Below, in pieces: positions 10,401-42,431 of a DNA stretch of 64,000 bases (position 1 is its first letter; each line of letters opens with the position of its first letter). The translations under genes and the position numbers were made by a program. Under the pieces are notes generated by a model. It was not told where the DNA came from and ran no database searches. It saw only the letters and a list, made by a program, of their open reading frames with translations. Source of the DNA: Bolinopsis microptera (Eukaryota; Ctenophora; Tentaculata; Lobata; Bolinopsidae); the NCBI RefSeq assembly GCF_026151205.1, contig NC_087078.1:15207118-15271117 (forward strand), written 5' to 3'.

Positions 10401-13400
10401 TTGTTAGCATATTATTTCAAGTTAATATTACTATTATGCACAGATCCGTGTCAGGTTGCATATTGCATAAACAATAAACATATGGTACCATTAAAATACA
10501 CACGATTTTCAAATGCAATATGGAATTAACTGGGAGGCGCTCGGCCTGTCACTCTGCCAGTGACAGCCCAACTAATGCCACAGTGGGTACGCCTCAGACA
10601 ACAGCCCAGTTATGGTCAGAGGTTGCTAAAAAAGACGACAACAAAAGATTCACCGTAGCAAACAAGCATAACACCAAGAATCACCGTGAACAGGACAGAC
10701 TTGGTAACAATGGCCATCGCAACCACGTACTGCTGCGGGAGAACAACAGCAATACAAGCTCCTCCATCAATGACAGGAAAAGCTACAGGCGACACACGGT
10801 ACTCCTGATCCACGATGAGAACTTTGATGAGTTCGATCCAAGACGCTTTAACAGTCAGTTCAATGTTCACTGCTTTAAAGCAACTAGCTACTCTGACTTG
10901 GGAAAGAACTCAAAACAACTTAACAAAACCTTAAAGCGACTCAAACCAGAGTGCATATATATCCACACGGGGATTAATGACTTTCTCTACAAGAAAACGG
11001 GTCTTGTAGGCCACGTGAAGGAACTTTACTTACATCTGCTTAACACCACAGCAGCACAGATATGCTTCTCAGCGCTGATACCCTCCTCTAATGACTCTTA
11101 TATCAATGACAGGTTACGTATCATCAACGAGGAGATCAGAAACCATATAACTTGGCTCCACAACCACAAGCCGGAAGTCAAAGATAGGATCTTCACCTTC
11201 ACAAATGAGAAGATTGGCGACCAAAGCACTTATTCGCCCAGCACAGGCTTCAAACTCAGTCAGAGAGGCCAAAACATGCTCTGGCTTCGCCTCAGGGAAG
11301 GTCTGAGGAAGACATTACGCCTCCCCCGATTAAGTTACCACGAGGGCAACAAAGCAAGACGCAGCACTAACAGGTATAGCGATGACTAAATCTACATCAA
11401 AGAGGTCCCGGCACTCCCTTAGGTTCCTGTGTTGGAACATCAACCACTCTCGGGACAAAACTGAAGGACCTAAAGTCGACATACCCGAAATCCAAGATCT
11501 CTTCAAAAGCCACGATATCTTTGCACTGCAAGAAACTAAAGGGGAGATTAACTTTAGTAACTACTGCTGCTTTAACTCAAACCGAAAGGGGTCAAATTCT
11601 GGTGGTGTCTGTATTGGAGTCCATAAAAGCCTACAAGCCGGTGTAACTCATGTCCAGATGAACGCCTCGGAGGACATCGTTGTAGTTAAGCTGAAAGCCA
11701 ACTATTTTGATCTTGAGAGGAACACCTATTTAGTTAATGTATACGACTCTCCAACCAATGGTTCTTTCAAGAAGCGGAGAAGAGATATAGAAACTGAAGT
11801 CAGCAACTCAACTCTAGAACACCTCCAAGAATTCCTGGCAGATATACCGCTCAGCGAGGATGTCATTCTTCTCGGTGACTTTAACGCTAGAACTGGCACA
11901 ATGGATGACATGATGTCTGACAATAGACACCTGAAAGACTACGAACTTAACGCCCATTACTGCAAACAGCTGACGAAACGCAACAACTCGGACCTTAAGC
12001 TGAACACAAACGGGCGACCCTTCATCGAACTCCTGCAAACAACTGGTCTAGTCATTCTCAATGGTAGGACCCTGGGTGACATTTTTGGTGCACCCACTTG
12101 TATTCAACGCCACGGTGTTAGCACTGTTGACTATATCTGCGTATCCACGAGTCTCCACGATAAAATTCGCCAACTCAAAATCGAGAGCATATCCCAGTAC
12201 TCCGATCACAGGCCACTCTCTATGACTATCTCTACCAATCACCTAAAGAGGATCTCTACCAGTAATGACACTAAAGACATCCAGGATGCACCCAAATCCT
12301 TCAAATGGAACAGATCAGAGAATCTCTCTGCCGACTCAGCAACCCAGTTTCGCTCGGCACAGAATGATCAGACATTTAAGGACAAAATAGAACACCTCCT
12401 TAACCAACCAGCGAACACAGCAGACGAAGCAACACGGCTCAATAGAGATTTGGTCGCAACATACCACAACCTTGCGAATTCAGTTACTACAACCAAACGT
12501 GGAACACGTACTAACAAGAAAAAATGGTTTGATCTTAACTGCAGGCGTGCGAAAAGTGCGGCTAGTAGAGCTGACAGGAATGCAAATCGCAACCCACACA
12601 GCAATTTCCTTCGCAATCAGCACTTTCTCAAAAAAAAGGAGTACCGGGCTATTAAGAGCACGAAAAAGGGGAAATATCTCTTCGAGATGAATCAAAAGAT
12701 AAACGAAAGTGGTAATGTTAACTGGGCGGCGCTCAAGCAACTGTCCGAACAACACAAAGATGAAGAGCCATTTGACATTTATGATCTTCTCCTCTTTCAT
12801 AAATTTTTTAACGACCTTTACAACCGTAAGTGTAGTAAGAATCACCACGCAGATGATGACGTCGTCTCTACTCCCACAACCGACGAGCTGCAGAACACTA
12901 AAAACCTAGTCGACAGTTTGAATCGAGACTTCACCTTACAGGAGACAAAAGATGCGATCAAGAAACTGAAGAACAACAAGAGTGTGTCCGATGACCTGAT
13001 ATCAAACGAGATGCTGAAAAACTCCAACGAGCAACTCCAACTTGTTCTAGTTAAGCTTTTTAATGCCTGTCTTCAGTGCGGAACCTACCCTTGGAACAAC
13101 TCTATCACCACTCCACTCCATAAAAAGGGTGACCGTCAGAACCCCGATAACTATCGGGCCATTACCATTGGCAGCTGTCTTGGCAAGCTATTTTCGAACT
13201 TGCTCCTTAAACGGCTGATAGAATTTAGGGAAATAGCTTGTCCCGACCGACCGTATCAACTGGGATTCAGGAGTGGAGCACAATGTAATGACCACTTGCT
13301 CACCCTGAACACTATCATAGAGAAATATGTCAAAAAAGAGAAGAAGCGACTATTTGCCTGCTTCGTCGATTATCGGAAGGCGTTTGACAGTGTATGCAGG

Positions 13401-16400
13401 GATGCACTTCTGTTCAAACTGGGCAACATGGGTCTCTCAGGCAATTTCTTCACTTGCATCAGCCACATGTATAACAACTCGTCAACCCGAGTTAAGCTGA
13501 TCCAAAAGCTCTCCGCTGCTATCGACGTTACCATCGGCACAGAACAAGGGCACCCGATGTCCCCTGAGCTCTTCAAAGTTTATATCCACGAGCTTTCCAT
13601 CAGACTGGAACAAATCGAAGAGTTGAATGTCCCAATTTTAAACGGCATCAAAGTAAGCCACCTCCTATGGGCTGACGACTTAGTCCTCCTAGCACTTGAC
13701 GCGTTCAGCCTACAATCGTTGCTGAATTGCTTGCACGACTATGCAGAAAAATGGGAGTTATCAGTTAACATCGACAAAACCAGTGTGATGGTCTTCAATA
13801 CAAGCTCACGAACACTTAAATGTTCTTATGGCTTTAAACTAGGAAGCCTGGACATTATACCAGTAAAAAGATACTGCTATCTCGGAATCCAATTCTCTCT
13901 GAATGGATCGTTTAAGCAAGCTATCGACGAACTTAGGAAGAAAGCTCTACGCTCATTCTTCTCAATGAGGCGAATTATCAACACGAAAGCGCTCACTACC
14001 AGCACGATGCTTAAACTCATCGATAGTCTAGTAAAGCCTGTAGCGACCTATGCATGTCCCGTCTGGCTCTCATCAACAAACACCGTAAAGGCTATCCTGT
14101 CGAAAAAAGAAGAAGTGAGCCTGCCTAAATCTGCAGCTAAAGATCCGCTCGAAACAACTCATCTGAAGATTCTCAAATGGATACTAGGCGTTCACAAGAA
14201 AGCTAATAACAACTTCTGCTATGGTGACACTGGTAGAACCCCCTGGACAGTTACCGTCATTCCCCAATGTTTAGCTTACTTCCATCGGGCATCCCTGGCG
14301 GTAGAAGGTAACGTGAACACTCTTTTGCACCACACCTTTCAAGAGCAAAAGCTACTGAATCTAACCTGGTATGATGCGTGGTCAACTATTGCCAAGATGA
14401 GTACAGTCTCCAAGCCGCAGTTATCACCCACCCTAGACGCTTGTGAGTACATACATGAGACATTTGTTGACCATTGGAAGAGAGATCTCCTCAACCAGCC
14501 CAAAATGTCTTTCTACACAGCGGTTAAATTCGAGTTTGGCGAAGAACCCTATTTACAGCTCCCCTGCCGGCTTAAAAGGGTCAATATTGCTAAACTCCGA
14601 TCTAGCAGTCACGATCTTAGGATAGAAAAAGGTCGCTACACCAAAGATCAACTCAACACAGCTCTTAAAACGTGTCGCTTCTGCTGCTCCTCAGAAACGG
14701 ATGTCATACGTTTTTTAGAGGAGCTCCCCTTCTTTGAAACTCCTATTCTAGAAACCGAAGACCACGTCCTAACTGAGTGCCCCTACTACCATCAACTCAG
14801 GTCCAACCTCTCTGACAACCTCAAAAGCCTGTTGATGCTAAAAGAATATGGAGCAATAATGAACTCACTCCATATAAAAGAGTTCGGGAAGTACCTTACA
14901 GACTCCTCAAATCTACGTAATCCTCCTAAAACGTCCCTTAACCCTCGCAAACAGATGTAGTACTCGAACTTTATTTACTGGATTACCTTAAATTATTATA
15001 GACGATCTTCTTTTATTTTCGTGAAATTGTAAACGGTTAAATTTTACTATTTTTAAATGATTCAGTTTTGATAATTTTATTTATTCATTTATTCATTTAT
15101 TCATTCTTGTATAGCCAAGACGAGTCCGTTAGTGTTCTCTCTGGTAATTTCATGTTTAATCCTGTTTAATCCTGTTTAATCCTCTGCCATATCCGCATGC
15201 TTACAAACAGTATTTTATGATAAAATACGCAATCACGTATGGAATATGATAAAATACGCCATCACGGATATGATCGGGAAATTGAGCGGTCATCCACAAA
15301 AGAAAAGTGGCTGCAATTCTTGTTAAAGTGTTAATAGCCACAAAATTGATTCATAAATTCTAACGCAGTATTTCAGTTCACTTGTACTTGTAGCTTACTG
15401 TTTAACATATTGCAAATTCAATGTACCCCTATCTATAAACGGCATACAGATCACCACTGCTTCAGAACACGTGACATGATGTAATAATTTGTGGATATAA
15501 AGATATTACGCCCCATAACTGTATAATTATGTATGATTTTGTAATATGCATGGTTATTCACCGGTCAATCGGGAAATTTGGGGCAAACAGCGCCAAATCC
15601 TCATAACCTTGCGAGAATAAACAAACATAATCATGCGGTACATATCATATAATATTATAATGCCTCCATATTTACAAATTCATACACATCATATCTATTA
15701 TCTCATGTTAAGAAACAGTGGTACGTTATAAGAGCTCAGTAGTCAGCTCGAACTTGTCTATTTGCTGCGACAGTCTCATAACGAGCAATGACATTTATAA
15801 ATTGAATATGTTTTCACGTGGACTGAGGTTAATAACTCTGTACGTTCTGGGAGTGGTTGTGACGAATATAGTTTATAACCCCCTATAACCCCGTACTCTT
15901 ACCCGGTACCCCGCCTCAATGCTAACAGTAAACCTAGCCAAAACGTCTCCTAAAACCCTAACGAGAGATTTTACCAGCTTACTTGTTTCCCGGCCATTGA
16001 CTTTCAGGGAAGCATTTTTATTTTATTATGTGATGTGCTTAGCTTCAGAATCAGCGTCCATTTTGTGAAAATTCTTGGCATATTCTCATATTATAAAGCG
16101 CCTTAAAATCCATTAATCTTAATGGAAACTTAATGGCCGCGAAACGAGTAAGCTGGTAAAATATCTCGTGCTAGACCCTTACCCAAGGTGGCTGGTATTC
16201 ACTTAATACAAAGGCACCTTGGATTAATTGTTGCTGTCGAACAACGCCTTCTCACTTACAATTAATAATAGCTACAAAAAAGCAGACTAATGCACTTTAA
16301 CATAAATAATATAAGTCTCATAGCTCCGAACACATTGTCCTGAACTTATTTTCCCATAAAATCCATACCTCAAAGAGGGTAAATTTGTCTCCCACCCAGT

Positions 16401-30187: not shown

Positions 30188-31660
30188 GTCAATCACAGTG
30201 CTGGCAAGCACGACCGTTGCATTTATTGTGGGTATACTATGTACCCCATTTACTATTATACCCCTTTACTATTGGTACACGTTAGAAGCCTCTTTCGTGC
30301 ACGCGAAGCGTGCACTCCGGCCGGAGGCGGCGGCCGAAGGCCGCCGCCTCCGGCAGGAGTTTTTCAGGCATTAAGACTCATCGGAAGTCGTTCAGCAGAT
30401 TTATTTTTAGTTCAAAACATTCTAATTTGATGTCAAAGATGACAGGAATAAAAAATAGTTATGTTGAGATTTTTAAGAAATTTGCATAAAATACTCGCCA
30501 GCACTGTTATACGAAATTCGGTAAAAAACCCAAAATCGCCATATTCAGGTGCCTTAAAAACCATGTTAAAATTGAGTTAGAGATCTGAAATTTTTCAGGG
30601 CGTCTAGACGTTGACCAAATCGACTGCAAAAAAAGTTTCAGGTTTCAGGAGCATCGGGAAGTGGGTTTTCTAGAACCCCTGTTTTACGACAGATTGTCGT
30701 GATCACAGTGCTGGCAAGCACGAGCGGTGTCTTTATTGGGGGAATACTATGTACCCCCTTTACTATTGTACCCCCTTTACTATTACACCCCTTTACTATT
30801 ACATCCCCTTTGGTACACGTCGGAAGCCTCTTTCGTGCACGCGAAGCCTTCGGCCGCCGCCTCCGGCAGGAGTTTTTCAGGCATTAAGACTCATCGGAAG
30901 TCGTTCAGCAGATTTATTTTTAGTTCAAAACATTCTAATTTGATGTCAAAGATGACAGAAATAAGAAATAGTTATGTTGAGATTTTTAAGAAATTTGCAT
31001 AAAATACGCGCCAGCACTGTTATACGAAATTCGGTAAAAAACCCAAAATCGCCATATTCAGGTGCCTTAAAAACCATGTTAAGATTGAGTTAGAGATCTG
31101 AAACTTTGCAGGGCGTCTAGACGTTGACCTAATCGACTGTAAAAAAAGTTTCAAGTTTCAGGAGCACCGGGAAATGGGTTTTCTAGAACCCCTGTTTTAC
31201 GACAGATTGTCGTGATATATACATACATATATATATATCACAATGCTGGCAAGCATTACCGTCGCCCTTATATTCACAATACTATTTACCCCCTATACTA
31301 TTATATCCCCTTTATTGTTTTCCAGGCATTAAGACTCATCGAAAGTAGTTCAGCAGGTATATTTAAGTTCAAAACATTCTAATTCAATGTTAAAGATGAC
31401 AGGAATAAGAAATAGTTATATGGAGGTTTTTAAGAAATTTGCGCAAAATACGCGCCAGCATGTTATACGAAATTAGGTAAAAAACCCAAAATCGCCATAT
31501 TCAGGTGCCTTAAAAACCATGTTAAAATTGAGTAAGATATCTGAAACTTTGCAGGGCGTCTAGACCTTGTCCAAATCGACTTTAAACAAAATTTCATGTT
31601 TCAGCAGTATCGGCAAGTGGGTTTTCTGGAACCCCTGTTTTACAACAGATTGTCGTGAAG
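30188..31660. repeat. Three tandem copies of a ~515-bp repeat
   Basis: Units start at about 30192, 30703 and 31238, each with TCACAGTGCTGGCAAGCA (third copy diverged). Each carries TTTCAGGCATTAAGACTCAT, a segment ending GAAACTTTGCAGGGCGTC, and GGGTTTTCTAGAACCCCTG. Unit 1 contains an extra GC-rich palindrome (GGCGGCGGCCGAAGGCCGCC) that is shorter in unit 2 and lost in unit 3. TA-rich microsatellite flanks unit 3. ORFs overlapping the units are not conserved between copies. Confidence 0.9.
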
Positions 31661-31694: not shown

Positions 31695-33084
31695 TAGACG
31701 CTTTTGGCAGTCAATTGTAGCCTACATTTAAGTGTCTGTAGATCCAAAAGTATAAACGATACAGTCATCTCGAACCACAGGTTTTAAAGATAATCGTTTA
31801 AGCTTTAGTTTACATTGTATTGAAAAATAATTTAACGTCATCATCATCACTTGATGACGTCATCAAATTAAGTGTTTTTAAAACTAAATTTTTGACAAAG
31901 TAACAACTTTTCAAATCGATTTTACACCATTAAGGAGTAATTTTATTCAAAATCTGAGGACATTTTTATCTTAGATAATTGTTCAAGCATTCCGAAAATC
32001 TACCGGAAAAGTTTCCTACCTTGCTCCTTCATAAAGATATTTGCTATTGAAGTTAGTGCTTTTTTGAAGAATAATTTTATAAAAACACAAAAGTTGTGAA
32101 TTAGTATTCTCTGGTGTTGGGCCATCCCTTGGGTTGTGGAGCTTAATTTTGCTTCTTAAAGGTCTAAATTGTGTTATAGGCTAGTTTTAAAGTTGAAAAT
32201 CGGAAAGTTGCACACGTGGGGACACGCCCAAATTGATTTAAAATAGCTAAAATCACTAAAAATTGTTATTTTCACGATTTTTATCAACTTTGGAGTCCCG
32301 TTGTGATCCAAGTTCTTTTTGAAATCTTCTGAAACTTTGCATGCTTATCAAACTATATATTAAATACCACTATGCAAAAATTTACGGTATTTCAATATTG
32401 TATGCGCACGCAACGTCCGCTCAAAGTTTGCACGTGCGAAAGGTGAGAATTTTGCTCATTCGTGATTTCGAATATATTCTGCTTTCCACGATATTTAAAT
32501 GGCATTATATATATGAATTTAATGCCAACCTAAATGAGTAAAAAGTGCCATATTCAGTCGGTTATCGACAGATATACCTACCTAAACACAAGGAAAAATT
32601 TTCAAAGGCAGAATATCGAAATCGTTGAAATTATCTCCTTATTTATAATTATGTTAATGAAGTTTCGACTGTGTAAATTATCCTGACATTATAATCAAAA
32701 AGAGGTGATATTTGACCAAAACCCATAATCATGGGTAGAGTGTACCGCTGCCAGTGTCTCTCTTTTCCAAACAAAAGGAAATGATATTAATTTGAGGAAC
32801 CGTCCGCTAATGCAAAATGATACCGAGAATGAAATCGGTCGCTCGCTTTTCCCATTTAATAAGCTTTATTACAATTCGTAAGCCGTGAATGAATGGGAAA
32901 AGCGAGCGACCGATTTCATTCTCGGTATCATTTTGCATTTGCGGACGGTTATTCAAATTAATATCATTTCCTTTTGTTTGGAAAAGAGAGACACTGGCAG
33001 CGGTACACTCTACCCATGATTATGGGTTTTGGTCAAATACATATATACATATATATATTCAGGGATAGACGCTTTGCCAGTCAA
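31695..33084. repeat. ~1.4-kb tandem unit, copy A
   Basis: Begins TAGACGCTTTTGGCAGTCAA and ends just before the foldback insertion. Copies B (39506-40911) and C (40912-42431) share its order. The shared order is: CATCACTTGATGACGTCATC, a block with AAAATCTACCGGAAA, then CACGTGGGGACACGCCCAAA, then a short ORF, then a ~330-bp palindrome. No recognisable protein domain was found. Confidence 0.9.
32710..33038. repeat. ~330-bp palindrome of copy A
   Basis: Arms of about 147 nt run from ATTTGACCAAAACCC to GCTCGCTTTTCCCATT and back, around a ~35-nt loop. The arms differ at only a few positions near 32796-32810. Copy-specific bases (for example GTGTACC, CTTTTCCAA, CCGTCCGC) occur in both arms. Confidence 0.95.
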
Positions 33085-33087
33085 GGT

Positions 33088-34563
33088 GGCAAGTTTCCAT
33101 AAACGATATTTTATGATCGGCGCCGATAATCGCTTATTGAGCGCTTTTTCGGCGCTTTTTAAAAAAAAACCGTTTACAATCGCTTTTTTTACGATTATAA
33201 ACGGTTCAAAAAAAATCGCTTATAATCGACTATAATTGGTGTCATAATTCAAAAAAGCGCTTTTTTTAATTTAAAAGCGCTTATAAGCGCTTTTAAGCGC
33301 TTACTAGCGTCGCTGAGCGATTTGAAAGCGGTTTTCCAGTAGGATTGGCGCCAAAAACGGGTGGATAAGCGGTTGGCCGGATAAGCGATTCGTAGGCGCT
33401 TTTTTGAACCATTTATAAGCGATTATAAGCGCTTATAAATGGGGTGCAATTTAGCTGTTTGTAAAGCGCAAATAAAGCGCTTATAAGCGCTTTTAAAATT
33501 GAGTCAGGAAAACGCTATATTACATCTTATAACCGCTTATAATCGATTATAAGCGTTTTTTAAGAAATCGCTTATTACGGCTAATTCATCGCTATTTCAC
33601 CGCTTTTACCGCTTTTCCTATCATCCATGGCCAGGTGAGCAAGAATTAAAAAGCGCTTATAAGCGCTTTTTCGATGCTGCCCCTATCCTGGTCGGAACGG
33701 GGTAGTGCCCGGAATTTAAGAGCGCTTATAAGCGATTTCTCAATTCCCCTTAACCTGGTCGGAACTGGAGAGTGCCCACTTGCATGTGCTTTTCTGAGCA
33801 ACCTGGGGTGCACCGGCAGAGTCAGGATTTAAAAGCGCTTATAGGCGCTTATGATCGCTTTTCTACCGCTTTTTCTATCATCCATGGCCTGGTTGGCAAG
33901 AATTATAAAGCGCTTATAAGCGTTTTTTCAATGCTGCCCCTAACCTGTTCGGAACAGGGGTGTGCCCGGAATTAAAAAGCGCTTATAAGCGCTTTTTCAA
34001 TGCTGCCACTAACCTGGTCGGAACGGAAGAGTGCCCGGAACTAAAAAGCGCTCATTAGCGCTTTTTTAATGCTGCGCTTATAAGCGATTTCTCAATTCCC
34101 CTTAACCTGGTCAGAACTGGAAATCAGTGTGCCCGCTTATAGTTATAAGTGCTTTTCTGTGCAACCTGGGGTCACCGGCAGAATCAGGATTTAAAAGCGC
34201 TTATGATCGCTTTTCTACCGCTTTTCCTATCACCCATGGCCTGGTTGGCAAGAATTAGAAAGCGCTTATAAGCGTTTTTTCAATGCTGCCACTAACCTGG
34301 TCAGAACGGGGGAGTGCCCGGAATTAAAAAGCGCTCATAAGCGCTTTTTAAATGCTGCCCCTAACCTGGTCGGAACTGGAAATCAGAGTGCCCGCTTATA
34401 AGTGCTTTTCTGAGCAACCTGGGGTACACGGCAGAGTCAGGATTTAAAAGCGCTTATGATCGCTTTTCTACCGCTTTTCCTATCACCCATGGCCTGGTTG
34501 GCAAGAATTAGAAAGCGCTTATAAGCGCTTTTTCAATGCTGCCACTAACCTGGTCGGAACGGA
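33088..34563 (+). repeat. Foldback left arm with tandem units
   Basis: The outer part (33088-33620) is single-copy within the arm. From about 33600 the unit recurs, carrying CCATGGCCTGGTTGGCAAG, the repeated palindrome AGCGCTTATAAGCGCT, AACCTGGTCGGAAC and GGTGCACCGGCAGAGTCAGG. Unit starts fall near 33626, 33880, 34230 and 34488. Confidence 0.9.
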
Positions 34564-34583
34564 CCTTTACTGATAGTTGAAAT

Positions 34584-35085
34584 TCGACATATGACGTCAT
34601 CTAGCGTCATCTAGCGTCATCTAGCGTGAAATATCGCCAGATGATGATAGATGACGCTAGATGACGCTAGATGACGCCAATTAGCGACATTGTCGCTAAG
34701 TGCACGGCACCTTTCGAATGTCGCTATCTAGCGCTATCTAGCGCTATCTAGCGCTACATGACGCTATATAACGCTATATGACGCTAGATGACGCTAGATG
34801 ACGCTAGATGACGCTAAGCACGCAGCACTGACGCCAGGCGACAGATAGCGCTATTTTCATAAAATTTCCGCCTTTTTTTTGCGACATCTAGCGGTGTCTA
34901 GCGCTATCTAACGCTATATGTCGCAACGACATCTGACGCAGCGCTATCTAGCGCTATCTAGCGCTATCTAGCGAAGAATGTCGGGTTGTGACAGTTTACG
35001 CTAGATAGCGCTATCTAGCGCTAGATATCGCGGCGACAGCTAACGCTAGATAGCGCTATCTAATGAAGCTAATGAAGAATGTCGG
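34584..35085. repeat. Nested ATCTAGCGCT hairpin array in foldback loop
   Basis: Runs of CATCTAGCGT, CTATCTAGCG and GATGACGCTA alternate in direct and inverted orientation, so neighbouring blocks can pair. It forms the left part of the central loop and differs in motif from the arm repeats. Confidence 0.85.
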
Positions 35086-36990
35086 TTTGCGACAGTCCAC
35101 GCAGTACGCGTAGACACATGGCTATCATGTCATAATGACTCATATGTGAATCCAAACCCTCACCCCAAAGCTATCAAAGTTATTTAACCTGAGCCTTAAT
35201 TGACGATGTCAATTCATCGCAGCTCGGCGATGCACAGAATTAAGCGCATCTCGCAGATCTAGCGAGAAGCATAATTGGATGCACGGCGCGGCACAGTAAC
35301 GCTTATAGCTTCAAGCAATAGGGAGCAGTAAACTGTAAGTGTAGACTCATGGCTATGTGAAAATGAAAAGTATAATATAAATACGTCTACATCGTGTGAC
35401 GTGTTTCATTTTTGGCAAGCAGAATAACTTACAATTTAGTAACGTATAATATGTGCTAAATTTTTTATGAACAAGTAAATGATTTGATCATTGTTAATGG
35501 GCTAGCCCGACGCGCGCTACTTCGTACTTCTTGGCTAGGCTTAGATTAATATTTTAGTGCTTTCGCCCGAAGTGGCGCGAAAGCACATGGTTAGGTGAAG
35601 GGTGCCATATTTGATGGTGCGCGGCTTTTGGAGCAAAAGTAGATGTAAAAGTCGCGTAATTTGACCAAATTCGTTGATTTTTGTCGTATTATTTCGGACA
35701 CTTTCCTTGTAAGTCTACGAGTACAGAGTGAGCTCAACAATTTTTGTTGCAATCGGAGGTCGGGAAGGATACTCAATATTTATTTGTTTGAAGAAAATTG
35801 TGCTGGCCGAAATTAGCGCTAAAAAACTATCCTACTATATAATACAGTCGGCACGCGCGGCTCACTGTTGATGGCGCACTACCTATCTGGATAGAGCAAC
35901 GGCAGCACGAAGGCACATGGTTAAGTTAGGTGCAAAATAATCGAACATGCAGAAACTCTTAGCTTTATTGCATTGTATATCATGTGTACGCTTATTTTTG
36001 TATAAAAACCGCGACCGGCTCTTGCTAATTCGCTCGCCCAAAAATTTCACGTGACCTTGGTTTTATGGTTTTGCTTCGTACAAAACAATTTTACATAAAC
36101 CCTAATCCCAACCATAACCCCGAAGCTATCCATAACCCGCGTACCTTAACCCAAACCCTAACCCGAGCCCTAAACAATCGAAATCATGTTTTACTAGCCT
36201 GTCACGTGACTAAAACGGTTTTTGCCCATGTAACTCTCCAGGGAAATATTTTCACCCTACGTTATGCAATGGCGGGTGATTCGGGATCAGCGTCCAAAAA
36301 ATACACCGATTTAGATCAATGTCATACCCAAAGGCCTTTTCACAAGAATTTTCTTAAAATTTGGGCGAGCGATTTCGTAGGAGCGATTCAAACGCGCAAT
36401 CTGGCGCGGTTTATTTGTTGCAGTTTTACTATCTAATAACCAAATTTTACAAGCTATCTCAGCACGCCTGCACGCGCACGGCTTTACTAGCGTATATATA
36501 CATTACTTTTTTCCTATTGGTACTCAGCGTGCACTTGTTTTTATGTCCACGATTGATTATGAACAAGTACGTGAATGCTGGTCACGCACACACTAACTTT
36601 CAATGAGCACCGCACTTTTTTCAGACGTCGTGATTCGCTCAGCCCGACTAGAGATTCCTTGGAATGACATAAACAGGCCTGTCATACTCGTTGACAGACT
36701 GAGCGTGGCCCAGCGCAATAATTTAATTTCATATACTATATTTTTCTTTTGCAAGTTCTGAATGTGAAGTGTGTATGACTGATGACGCGCGCAGCGCGCA
36801 TCGACCGCCACCAGGACAACCACCACCATTAACAACATATAAATAAACGCTTGCAAGCGCTTTACAATTTCTGACAATTATTGTCGGAGAACTTTGCCGC
36901 GCCGTGCACTTAGCCTTCTTGCTTGGCTTCTAGATCGCCAGTCAAACAACCATGTTTAAATCCATGTTGATAAATGATAGATAAATCGGT
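35086..36990. other. Unique centre of the foldback element; no gene recognised
   Basis: Small ORFs occur on both strands, for example a minus ORF at 36593-36877 with an apparent hydrophobic N-terminal segment. None shows a transposase, recombinase or other known motif that I can name. Any cargo gene remains unidentified. Confidence 0.45.
36027..36377. mobile_element. Possible MITE nested in the foldback loop
   Basis: TTCGCTCGCCCAAAAATTT (about 36029) is matched in inverted orientation by AAATTTGGGCGAGCGATTT (about 36357). The interior contains degenerate CCCTAACCC-like repeats and a 123-codon ORF with no recognisable domain. The TSD is not clear. Confidence 0.45.
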
Positions 36991-39505
36991 AAAAACCAGC
37001 AATAAAAAGTGATTGTAATCACTTATAACTTATAACCGCTTTTCAAATCCTTAGGGGCAGCATTAAAAAAGCGCTTATAAGCGCTTTCTAATTCCTGCCA
37101 ACCAGCCCATGGGTGATGGGAAAAGCGGTAGATAAGCGATCATAAGCGCCTATAAGCGCTTTTAAATCCTGACTCTGCCGGTGCACCCCAGTTTGCTCAG
37201 AAAAGCACATACGAGTGGGCACTCTCCAGTTCCGACCAGGTTGAAGGGAATTGAGAAATCGCTTATAACTATAAGCGCTTTTAAATTCCGGGCACTCCCC
37301 CGTTCCGACCAGGTTAGTGGCAGCATTGAAAAAGTGCTTATAAGCGCCTTTTAATTCCGGGCACTCCCCCGTTGCGACCAGGTTAGTGGCAGCATTGAAA
37401 GAGCGCTTATAAGCGCTTTCTAATTCCTGCCAACCAGGCCATGGGCGATAGGAAAAGCGGTAGAAAAGCGATCATAAGCGCCTATAAGCGCTTTTAAATC
37501 CTGACTCTGCCGGTGCACCCCAGGTTGCACAGAAAAGAACTTATAAGCGGGCACTCTGATTTCCAGTTCCGACTAGGTTAAGGGGAATTCAGAAATCGCT
37601 TATAAGCGCATATTAATTCCAGGCACTCCCCCGTTCCGACCAGGTTAGGGGCAGCATTGAAAAAACGCTTATAAGCGCTTTATAATTCTTGCCAACCAGG
37701 CCATGGGTGATAGGAAAAGCGGTAGAAAAGCGATCATAAGCGCTTTTAAATCCTGACTCTGCCGGTGCACCCCAGGTTGCACAGAAAAGAACTTATAAGC
37801 GGGCACTCTGATTTCCAGTTCCGACCAGGTTAAGGGGAATTCAGAAATCGCTTATAAGCGCATATTAATTCCAGGCACTCCCCCGTTCCGACCAGGTTAG
37901 GGGTAGCATTGAAAAAGCGCTTAAAATTCTTGCCAACCAGGCCATGGGTAATGGGAAAAGCGGTAGAAAAGCGATCATAAGCGCCTATAAGCGCTTTTAA
38001 ATCCTGACTCTGCCGGTGCACCCCAGGTTGCACAGAAAAACACTTATAAGCGGGCACTCTGATTTCTAGTTCCGACCAGGTTAAGGGGAATTGAGAAATC
38101 GCTTATAAGCGCTTATTAATTCCAGGCACTCCCCCGTTCCGACCAGGTTAGGGGCAGCATTGAAAAAACGCTTATAAGCGCTTTATAATTCTTGCCAACC
38201 AGGCCATGGGTGATGGGAAAAGCGGTAGAAAAGCAATCATAAGCGCCTATAAGCGCTTTTAAATCCTGACTCTGCCGGTGCACCCCAGGTTGCTCAGAAA
38301 AGCACATGCAAGTGGGCACTCTCCAGTTCCGACCAGGTTGAAGAGAATTGAGAAATCGTTTATAAGCGCTTTTTAATTCCGGGCACACCCCCGTTCCGAA
38401 CAGGTTAGGGGCAGCATTGAAAAAACGCTTATAAGCGCTTTATAATTCTTGCCAACCAGGCCATGGGTGATAGGAAAAGCGGTAGAAAAGCGATCATAAG
38501 CGCTTTTTAATCCTGACTCTGCCGGTGCACCCCAGGTTGCTCAGAAAAGCACTTATAAGCGGGCACTCTGATTTCCAGTTCCGACCAGGTTAGGGGCAGC
38601 ATTTAAAAAGCGCTTATGAGCGCTTTTTTATTCCGGGCACGCCCCCGTTCCGACCAGGTAAGGGGCAGCATTGAAAAACGCTTATAAGCGCTTTATAATT
38701 CTTGCCAACCCATGCCATGGGTGATAGGAAAAGTGGTAGAAAAGCGATCATAAGCGCCTATAAGCGCTTTTAAATCCTGACTCTGCCGGTGCACCCCAGG
38801 TTGCTCAGAAAAGCACATGAAAGTTCCGACCAGTGCAGGTTAAGGGGAATTGAGAAATCGCTTATAAGCGCTTTTAAATTCCGGGCACTACCCCGTTCCG
38901 ACCAGGATAGGGGCAGCATCGAAAAAGCGCTTATAAGCGCTTTTTAATTCTTGCTCACCTGTCCATGGATGATAGGAAAAGCGGTAAAAGCGGTGAAATA
39001 GCGATGAATTAGCCGTAATAAGCGATTTCTAAAAAAACGCTTATAATCGATTATAAGCGGTTATACGATGTAATATAGCGTTTTCCTGACTCAATTTTAA
39101 AAGCGCTTATAAGCGCTTTATTTGCGCTTTACAAACAGCTAAATTGCACCCCAATTATAAGCGCTTATAATCGCTTATAAATGGTTCAAAAAAGCGCCTA
39201 CGAATCGCTTATCCGGCCAACCGCTTATCCACCCGTTTTTGGCGCCAATCCTACTGGAGAACCGCTTTCAAATCGCTCAGCGACGCTAGTAAGCGCTTAA
39301 AAGCGCTTATAAGCGCTTTTAAATTCAAAAAAGCGCTTTTTTGAATTATGACACCAATTATAGTCGATTATAAGCGATTTTTTTTGAACCGTTTATAATC
39401 GTAAAAAAAGCGATTGTAAACGGTTTAAAAAAAAAAAACGCCGAAAAAGCGCTCAATAAGCGATTATCGGCGCCGATCATAAAATATCGTTTATGGAAAC
39501 TTGCC
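36990..39505 (-). repeat. Foldback right arm with tandem units
   Basis: The inverted counterpart of the left arm, expanded to about eight units. Unit landmarks (CCATGGGTGATAGGAAAAGC) fall near 37105, 37440, 37705, 37945, 38200, 38460, 38715 and 38960. The terminal ~650 nt mirror 33088-33740 nearly base for base. Confidence 0.9.
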
Positions 39506-40911
39506 GTCAATTCTAGGCTATATTTAGGTGTCCGTAGATTCAAAAGCTTTAAAGATACAGCCATTTCGGACCTCAGGTCTTGAAGATAATTGTTTAGACT
39601 TTAGTTTACATTATGTTAAAAAGTAATTCAACGTCATCATCACCACTTGATGACGTCATCAAGTTAACCATTTTTAAAACTTGATTTTTCACAAAGTAAT
39701 CATTTTTCAAATCGATTTTACGCCATTAAGGAGTAATTTTATTCAAAATTTGAGGACATATTGAAGTTAGATAATTGTTTAAGCATTCTGAAAATCTACC
39801 GGAAAGTTTTTCTAGCTTGCTCCTTCATAAAGATATTCGCTATTGAAGTTAGTGCTTTTTTAAAGAATAATTTTATAAAAACGCTAATTTTACGTTCTAG
39901 TATTCTCTGGTGTTGCACCATCCCTTGGGTTGTGGAGCTCAATTTTGCTTCCTAAAGGTCTAAATTGTGTCATAGGCTAGTTTTAAAGTTGAAAATCGAA
40001 AAGTTGCACACGTGGGGCCACGCCCAAATTGATAGAAAATTGCTAAAATCACTGAAAAATTGCTGTTTTCACCAATTTCCGTCAACTTTGGAGTGCCGTT
40101 GTGATTATAGTTCTTCTTGAAATACTTTGTAACTTTTCATGCTTATCAAACTATATACAATACACCATCATGCAAAAATTTACGGTGATTCAATATTGGA
40201 TGCGCACGCAACTTCCGCTCAAGGTTTGCACGTGCGAAAGGTTCAAATTTTGCTTATTCGTGATTTTGAACAAATTCTGCTTTGCCACGACAGTTCAATG
40301 TCATTATATATGAATGTAATGCCAACTTGAATGAGTATAAAGTGGCATATTCAGTCAGTGATCGACCGATATGCTTACCTAAACACAAGGAAATGTTTTT
40401 AAAGGAAAAATTTCGAAATCGTTGAAATCACCTCCTTATTAATATTATTATTAATGAAGTTATGAGTTTACATTTCAGCTTTGTAAAGTACCCTGACATT
40501 ATAATCAAAAAGAGATGATATTTGACCAAAACCCATAATCATGGGTAGAGTAGACCGCTGCCAGTGTCTCTCTTTCCCAAACAAAAGGCAATGATATCAA
40601 TTTGAATGACCGTTATCAAATGCAAAATGATACCGAGAATGAAATCGGTCGCTCGCTTTTCCCATTCATTTACAATTGAAATAGATTACATGTTATAAAT
40701 CGAAACTTATTACAATTCGTAAGCCATGAATGAGTGGGAAAAGCGAGCGACCGATTTCATTCTCGGTATCATTTTGCATTTGATAACGGTCATTCAAATT
40801 GATATCATTGCCTTTTGTTTGGGAAAGAGAGACACTGGCAGCGGTCTACTCTACCCATGATTATGGGTTTTGGTCAAATATCTATATACATACATATAAT
40901 ATATTCAGGGA
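39506..40911. repeat. ~1.4-kb tandem unit, copy B
   Basis: Continues directly from the foldback right boundary with GTCAATTCTAGGCTATATTT and ends at ATATTCAGGG before copy C. Removing the foldback element joins copies A and B into an uninterrupted array. Confidence 0.9.
40520..40879. repeat. ~360-bp palindrome of copy B
   Basis: Arms match over about 145 nt with no mismatch that I could find, around a ~65-nt loop. Copy-specific bases present in both arms include GTAGACC, AAGGCAATGATATCAA and CCGTTATC. Confidence 0.95.
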
Positions 40912-42431
40912 TAGACGCTTTGCCAGTCAATTATAGCCTGTATTTAATTGTCCATAGATTCAAAAGTATAAAAGATACAGCCATTTCCGACCACAGGTCT
41001 TGAAAATAATTGTGTACACTTTAGTTTACATTGTATAAACAAATTATTTGACGTCATGAACACCCCTTGATGACGTCATCAAGTTAACCGTTTTTAAAAC
41101 TTGATTTTTGACAAAGTAATAACTTTTAAAAATGATTTTACACCATTAAAAAGTAATTGTATTCAAAATCCGAGGAAATTTTTATCTTAGATAATTGTTC
41201 AAGCATTCTGAAAATCTACCGGAAAGTTTTTCTAGCTTGCTCCTTCATAAAGATATTCGTCATTGAAGTTTGTACTTTTTTGAAGAATTATTTTATAAAA
41301 ACGTCAATTTTGCGATTTAGTATTCTCTGGTGTTGGGCCATGCCTTGGGTTGTGGAGCTCAGTTCTGCTTTCTATAGGTATAAATTGTGTATTAGGCTAG
41401 TTTTAAAGTTGAAAATCGAAAAGTTGCACACGTGGGGACACGCCCAAATTGATAGAAAATTGCTAAAATCACTGAAAATTGCTGTTTTCGTCATTTTCTG
41501 TCAACTTTAGAGTGCCGTTGTGATTACAGCTCTTCTTGAAATACTTTGAAACTTTGCATGCTTATCAAGCTATATATAAAACAATTACATGCAAAAATTT
41601 ACGGCGATTCAATTTTGGATGCGCAAGCAACGTCCGCTCAAAGTTTGCACGTGCGACAGGTGAGAATTTTGCTCATTCGTGATTTCCAACAAATTCTGCT
41701 TTGCCACGACAGTTTGATGTAATTATATATGAATTTAATGCCAACTTGAATGAGTATTAAGTGGCATATTCAGTCAGTGATCGACCGATATGCTTACCTA
41801 AACACAAGGAGATGTTTTTAAAGGAAAAATTTCGAAATCGTTGAAACTTCCTCCTTATTAATGAAGATACAAGTTTAAATTTCGACTTTATAAAGTACCC
41901 TGACATTATAATCAAAAAGAGATGATATTTTACCAAAACCCATAATCATGGGTAGAGTGGACCGCTGCCAGTGTCTCTCTTTCCCAAACAAAAGGAAATG
42001 ATATTAATTTGATTGACCGTTCTCAAATGCAAAATGATACCGAGAATGAAATCGGTCGCTCGCTTTTCCCATTCATTTACAATTGTAATAGATTAAGAAG
42101 AACTACCCGAAGGCAGCTGTACTCGGCAATAAAGATTCAATAAACTTCAGCTAATTCAATAAGTAATAACTACCACCCTTACCCCGAAATACTAGGTATC
42201 GACCCGAACGCAACCCAAGAGATTTTTACAGCATCTGATTGATGTAATCAATCGAAACTTATTACAATTCGTAAGCCGTGAATGAATGGGAAAAGCGAGC
42301 GACCGATTTCATTCTCGGTATCATTTTGCATTTGAGAACGGTCAATCAAATTAATATCATTTCCTTTTGTTTGGGAAAGAGAGACACTGGCAGCGGTCCA
42401 CTCTACCCATGATTATTGGTTTTGGTAAAAT
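40912..42431. repeat. ~1.4-kb tandem unit, copy C
   Basis: Begins TAGACGCTTTGCCAGTCAAT, the uninterrupted (empty) form of the foldback target site. It ends at the palindrome's right arm and is followed by unique DNA, not another unit. Confidence 0.9.
41927..42431. repeat. Palindrome of copy C with enlarged loop
   Basis: Arms match with a single mismatch seen. Both arms carry copy-specific TTTTACC (TTTGACC in A and B), GTGGACC, GATTGACC and CCGTTCTC. The loop holds an extra ~160 nt (about 42092-42250) absent from copies A and B. Confidence 0.93.

Follow-up and report, generated by a model that had tools for sequence, protein, structure and literature searches.

Long 3' palindromes whose arms change together in dispersed, putatively Helitron-like units of the ctenophore Bolinopsis microptera

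In the Helitron Helraiser, a 19-bp palindrome located 11 nt from the CTAG end was reported to act as a terminator (PMC4778049). In Galileo, inverted repeats bound the element, which makes 7-bp target duplications, and for two copies the terminal repeats were described as >99% identical in cis, with a divergence of ~7% from one copy to the other (PMC2775673). Hairpin stems can be repaired by template switching, as described for RNA genes during DNA replication (PMC8794818). When inverted repeats evolve in concert, gene conversion in the chromosome is the usual explanation. Here we describe units in the genome of the ctenophore Bolinopsis microptera that resemble each of these systems in part. 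As in Galileo and other foldback elements, long inverted arms are near-identical within a copy and several percent apart between copies; unlike in Galileo, only the 3' end has a palindrome, with a 1-kb body in front of it. As in Helraiser, an A precedes what would be the TC start and the 3' end has a short hairpin ~10 nt away from it, and a RepHel family of the same genome carries a palindrome related to that of the units; unlike in Helraiser, the arms measure 150–212 nt, the palindrome includes the terminus, and the units are without CTRR. The likeness to template-switch repair is that one arm appears to serve as template for the other, so that a single event yields paired substitutions, but here the setting is mobile elements and the signal is weak or absent in resident copies. 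Cis-identical arms are already known from Galileo; our contribution is the Helitron-like setting and the evidence on timing. Among the literature matches listed, we found no cis-homogenized arms in Helitrons, which is no proof of their absence.

The window, a stretch of 64,000 nt (NC_087078.1, positions 15,207,118–15,271,117), contains three such units, delimited by repeat families, reading frames, copies elsewhere, inverted-repeat detection and arm comparison. The body of unit A (31697–32708, + strand) has no long reading frame listed and its 5' boundary runs into an AT-rich repeat; it is followed by a left, inner arm (32709–32856, +) and a right, terminal arm (32892–33039, −), the element ending at ~33037–33038. 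Unit B consists of a body (39500–40516, +), a left arm (40517–40670, +) and a right arm (40729–40882, −; element end ~40878–40879), and its first bases are left behind at ~33060–33086, on the far side of an inserted inverted-repeat element. In unit C, a body with an AT-rich start (40883–41926, +) is followed by a left arm (41927–42080, +), a 197-nt loop (42081–42277, +) and a right arm (42278–42431, −), which is the 3' end of the array and is followed by other sequence. Upstream of unit A lie three head-to-tail TCACA(G/A)TGCTGGC... repeats of ~510, 515 and 425 nt (30193–31660, +), the first two of which abut directly. Such repeats precede units both here and at other loci: reading of 14 loci of 7 kb showed that most units are preceded either by another unit or by the ~510-nt repeat, which would probably be the 5' part of a composite element. 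The preliminary description had three tandem units, but A and B are at present not directly adjacent: a 6.4-kb element (33088–39505) interrupts unit B within its first bases. The terminal inverted repeats of this element are 670 nt long and 98% complementary (arms 33088–33757 and 38836–39505) and consist of GCGCTTATAAGCGC-type tandem repeats, and 10-nt CGCTATCTAG-type arrays lie inside it; GTCAA flanks it on both sides and may be a target duplication.

The three palindromes were located where the preliminary description had placed them, with arms of 148–154 nt that are 98–99% complementary. Loops of most A-type copies measure 21–28 nt and of most B-type copies 52–58 nt, varying with the arm cut point. 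Folded as single-stranded DNA, palindrome A reached −184.4 kcal/mol, versus −33.0 ± 3.8 kcal/mol for 100 dinucleotide shuffles. Arms differ in cis at 3/148 (A), 1/154 (B) and 2/154 (C) positions and in trans, among A, B and C, at 6–13 of 147–151, and all five variant sets that had been reported as carried by both arms of a copy are indeed present on both. When the six arms were placed in a FastTree tree, each cis pair grouped, as had been predicted (A_L with A_R, 0.976; B_L with B_R, 0.926; C_L and C_R both on the far side of a 0.859 split). In unit A, the right arm departs from the left at three linked sites (columns 86, 87 and 98; 32796–32808 and 32940–32952), and at those columns this trio matches the haplotype present on both arms of a palindrome at another locus, L063. 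The trio may therefore be a patch, and arm patches may come from other copies; it may also be a relic.

We searched the assembly with C, A and B as queries, which gave 40 scored places each, of 2009, 2043 and 1767 rough first-look candidates, respectively, and we fetched 20 further copies per query, the 14 7-kb loci, and another 100 palindrome regions. Each of A, B and C represents a dispersed subfamily of its own, so that they are more than local duplicates. It had been argued from the shared left flanks that the three copies are not independent insertions; this finds no support, because the flank belongs to the mobile unit and sharing it does not exclude separate insertions. In nearly all of 63 copies, the sequence turns to other DNA or to a new element directly after ...GGTCAAAT or ...GGTAAAAT, and a body resuming past the right arm was seen in none of the 63; the clear exception to the shared boundary is L034, in which the right arm has been replaced. 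Since the sequence changes directly after it, the outer end of the palindrome is the 3' end of the element. The last 18 nt of the body matched beside one arm (local score 12–18 of 18) in 182/183 unit-type palindromes, duplicates included. The mobile unit is thus the body together with the palindrome. At L063 and L066, units stand tail to tail, palindrome against palindrome, with a gap of ~11–15 nt.

Several traits of the units are Helitron-like. An A precedes the TC start in 27/29 distinct upstream contexts of the fetched loci, where the start is that of the presumed 5' repeat (TCACA), the search motif itself included TC, and the 5' edge of the unit proper lies in the AT-rich repeat. At the 3' end, the last A (...AAA) is followed by T in 148/149 anchored right arms (7 of 156 are without an anchor), and this T may be a base of the element instead of target DNA, because the corresponding base is present in the inner arm of 152/152 readable copies. 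A short hairpin read from the sequence of unit A, ACCCAT-GATT-ATGGGT (33012–33027, +), lies 10 nt before the last A, within the ~10–12 nt expected of a Helitron 3' hairpin: ACCCATGATTATGGGT is followed by 10 nt in both A and B, the terminal hairpin in the right arm of C has one change, and a similar hairpin is present in the RepHel element L182 described below. By eye, no target-site duplication was evident in the window or at L070 and L074, and no RepHel gene was found within the units. Nearly all of the 63 copies end in GGTCAAA(T) or GGTAAAA(T) and not in CTRR, and for this reason we do not file the units as Helitron. Neither do they have the inverted repeats at both outer ends that characterize foldback elements such as Galileo, the palindrome being at one end only and recurring with the body. 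As a check for flip/flop inversion, 81 unit loops oriented by their flank were aligned; each aligns over 156–171 columns, that is, in one orientation. We also considered whether the unit is the 3' end of a Helitron family, H2 (L179, L184), and rejected this, as H2 ends with a hairpin plus CTAG|T of its own and is nested inside a unit. At L179 (C11:3846200–3856199), the Helitron with this end lies nested in a unit, and C11 holds three Rep matches of the L179 family, 10.4–11.8 kb apart.

A Helitron with a 3' palindrome of its own was found elsewhere in the genome. There were 41 matches to Helitron_like_N, for which nine 10-kb stretches were fetched, and one of these, L182, carries Helitron_like_N and a PIF1 helicase, followed by two Ulp1-like (Peptidase_C48) exons (L182:4075–5014; one over and one under the Pfam cut-off) between the RepHel frame and a 3' palindrome. 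This palindrome has 212-nt arms that are 100% identical and a loop of 955 nt, and satellite DNA follows it directly; uninterrupted satellite in the same locus reads ACA|TACC where L182 ends, and CTAA lies one base from the end. The family has a second member, L188; its Rep match falls beyond the fetched piece, some 4.5 kb away from the locus, and its palindrome has 207-nt arms that are 99.0% identical in cis and 95.8% identical to those of L182. Between the two, both arms show a 6-nt indel and two substitutions, and a further two substitutions are confined to a single arm. The outer 43 nt of the L182-type arms align to the unit arms with a local score of 22 (maximum of 1,000 shuffles: 19), and 13 positions agree in an inner 14-nt block. 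By this arm similarity, the RepHel family would be a candidate autonomous partner of the units. Comparison of the extra stretch of L188, the loop of L182 and the 3' region of L182 with positions 30–43 kb of the window gave nothing convincing (best E = 0.083).

The module seen in L182, with its 212-nt arms and 955-nt loop, may be able to move independently, because it is inverted in L188 relative to L182, where it also lies ~319 nt further from the coding part, and because parts of it occur, among the matches listed, at C7, C5 and C6 without a listed Rep match nearby. The same observations speak for a different explanation, in which the palindrome is an independent foldback-type transposon joined to several carriers (unit bodies, a Helitron) and its arms are homogenized by its own cut-and-paste cycle or by gap repair, as in Galileo. 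A middle segment that occurs in opposite orientations is a further likeness to Galileo and foldback elements, and the contrast between within-copy and between-copy identity reported for the two Galileo copies (PMC2775673) shows a foldback element with just such arms. Against it, the match to the end of the body stands beside one arm in 182/183 palindromes, no body was seen to resume beyond the right arm in the 63 copies, and in L182 satellite DNA comes directly after the palindrome. We regard this explanation as unlikely, if still deserving of attention.

How the arms change was examined across copies. Altogether 183 palindromes were found (nine further entries had no usable pair), of which 157 were distinct; removal of one of unknown orientation left 156. 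From these, seven were left out: L150 and L115 (truncated or mispaired arms), L034 and L163 (right arm replaced in its outer part), L124 and L143 (gapped) and L139 (a probable second haplotype of L140). In 104 of the remaining 149 palindromes the arms were identical over 143 columns, and 140 could be assigned to a subfamily (A, 34; B, 33; C, 73), nine belonging to none. The preliminary description had proposed a survey of other genomic copies for compensatory changes. Within subfamilies, changes common to at least two copies comprised 13 two-arm types and 2 one-arm types, the latter occurring in two copies each, while private changes comprised 17 two-arm types and 57 one-arm types (Fisher p = 5.6e-6; 140 copies). 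In the first 63-copy set, 9 two-arm types were shared and 10 were private, and none of the 47 one-arm types was shared; nearly half of these 47 stem from the replaced arm of L034. Thus the two arms change together: shared changes are almost always two-arm and one-arm changes almost always private. The search favored copies nearest to the window, which disfavors all changes, two-arm ones most. A tandem B-B pair at L070 illustrates the pattern, as only two of its seven differences fall in the arms, at positions that pair exactly with one another (2896 with 3037; T:A to G:C). Among 37 pairs with identical 140-nt left flanks, we counted 29 two-arm versus 99 one-arm differences, an excess that we think reflects a few mismatched copies recurring across many pairs. 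Two-arm changes comprised 10 transitions and 20 transversions and one-arm changes 32 transitions and 27 transversions; the transversion excess in the former (20/30 vs. 27/59) is not significant (p = 0.07), and the two-arm spectrum shows no sign of a G.U route. Of the one-arm types, 24 lie in the outer and 35 in the inner half of the arm, and 23 affect the left and 36 the right arm.

Paired changes would also arise if a perfect hairpin were favored by selection, whether for transposition or as RNA, and compensatory mutation kept the arms paired. The arms do appear constrained, since they diverge less than the body: among A, B and C, the bodies differ by 11.1–14.6% and the left arms by 4.0–8.1%, i.e., at 0.36–0.59 of the body rate. 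Such compensation, however, requires two independent matched hits, so that arms should hardly diverge at all, and with one-arm changes as dense as they are (61 in 40,028 arm sites in A, B and C copies), chance would produce only ~0.015 matched double hits among the 140 copies, against the 17 private and 13 shared two-arm types observed. Moreover, a one-arm intermediate is shared in only two types, fixed left/right differences persist beside the loop, and a 150-bp hairpin could presumably lose one pair at little cost. Selection on pairing alone, which the preliminary description had offered as an option, is therefore disfavored, and we consider it very improbable. We give equally little credence to an equalization of the arms by assembly or polishing, which could occur because reads shorter than an arm cannot distinguish left from right, but against which stand the surviving one-arm mismatches, the fixed left/right differences kept near the loop, and identical two-arm variants that recur at many loci.

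The ~2,000 first-look candidate copies allow the time of correction to be read, as shared changes are paired and private ones mostly are not. We compared one-arm mismatches with private loop changes in 81 C-like copies with loops of 150–260 nt (a set that lacks six of the seven palindromes left out above and includes L163). One-arm mismatches numbered 80 in 23,148 arm sites (3.5e-3) and private loop changes 59 in 13,751 (4.3e-3); without L136, L144 and L163 the values were 51/22,296 (2.3e-3) and 51/13,257 (3.8e-3), so that the one-arm density in resident copies is ~0.6–0.8 of the loop density and its near-equality leans on these few copies. In 13 copies with at least two private loop changes, one-arm densities were 0.006–0.014 versus 0.016–0.024 in loops (about 0.4–0.6), and in 49 copies without private loop changes the one-arm density was 0.0015; some private loop changes must predate insertion. 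In a 62-copy set, the combined flanks and loops carried private changes at 58/13,110 and the arms at the lower frequency of 40/17,975 (two-arm changes counted in each arm). Since the arms of this set show fewer private changes, and since so few copies account for the closeness of one-arm and loop densities, some arm correction may take place in resident copies after insertion.

The deficit in the 62-copy set and the ratio of 0.6 without L136, L144 and L163 are what one would expect of arm-to-arm gene conversion or cruciform repair acting continuously in resident copies; arm-to-arm gene conversion and cruciform-templated repair had been named in the preliminary description as possible causes. 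Against such continuous action, L136, L142 and L144 retain 13, 11 and 11 mismatches over 133–136 columns of their full arms, 57/59 one-arm types are private versus 13/30 two-arm types shared, and part of the private loop changes, with which the arms are compared, is older than the insertion. The proposed homogenization templated by the other arm is supported, but its continuous operation in residents fits poorly with the accumulation of one-arm mutations, and we hold it to be improbable. That shared changes are mostly two-arm and private ones mostly one-arm indicates that most matching occurs around mobilization, and the one-arm mutations that accumulate in resident copies likewise tie homogenization, as it seems, to mobilization. 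The arms thus seem to be matched around mobilization and then mostly to decay, with much less copying, if any, while resident.

The explanation that we prefer, and consider somewhat more probable than its negation, is that the units are non-autonomous Helitron-like elements of the rolling-circle type with a long 3' palindrome whose arms are matched at mobilization. During mobilization the element would at some stage be single-stranded and fold back into a 150-bp hairpin, and arm mismatches would be removed by copying one arm from the other, for which 3'-end trimming with fold-back resynthesis and hairpin mismatch repair are candidate routes. A new insertion would then start with matched arms, whose later decay would be largely independent, like that of two retroviral LTRs. 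If shared changes prove to be paired and private ones mostly unpaired across all copies, arm mismatch would help to date insertions, and a Helitron-like transposition intermediate would leave a readable trace of the rebuilding of its end. As a more tentative extension, there might be a rolling-circle branch whose giant 3' hairpin is renewed, with each round of transposition, from one of its own arms, arm mismatch then dating each insertion much as LTR divergence dates retroviruses.

The window contains one further mobile sequence, a LINE-like element at 10520–14960 with two overlapping frames, the second of which has endonuclease and reverse transcriptase domains.
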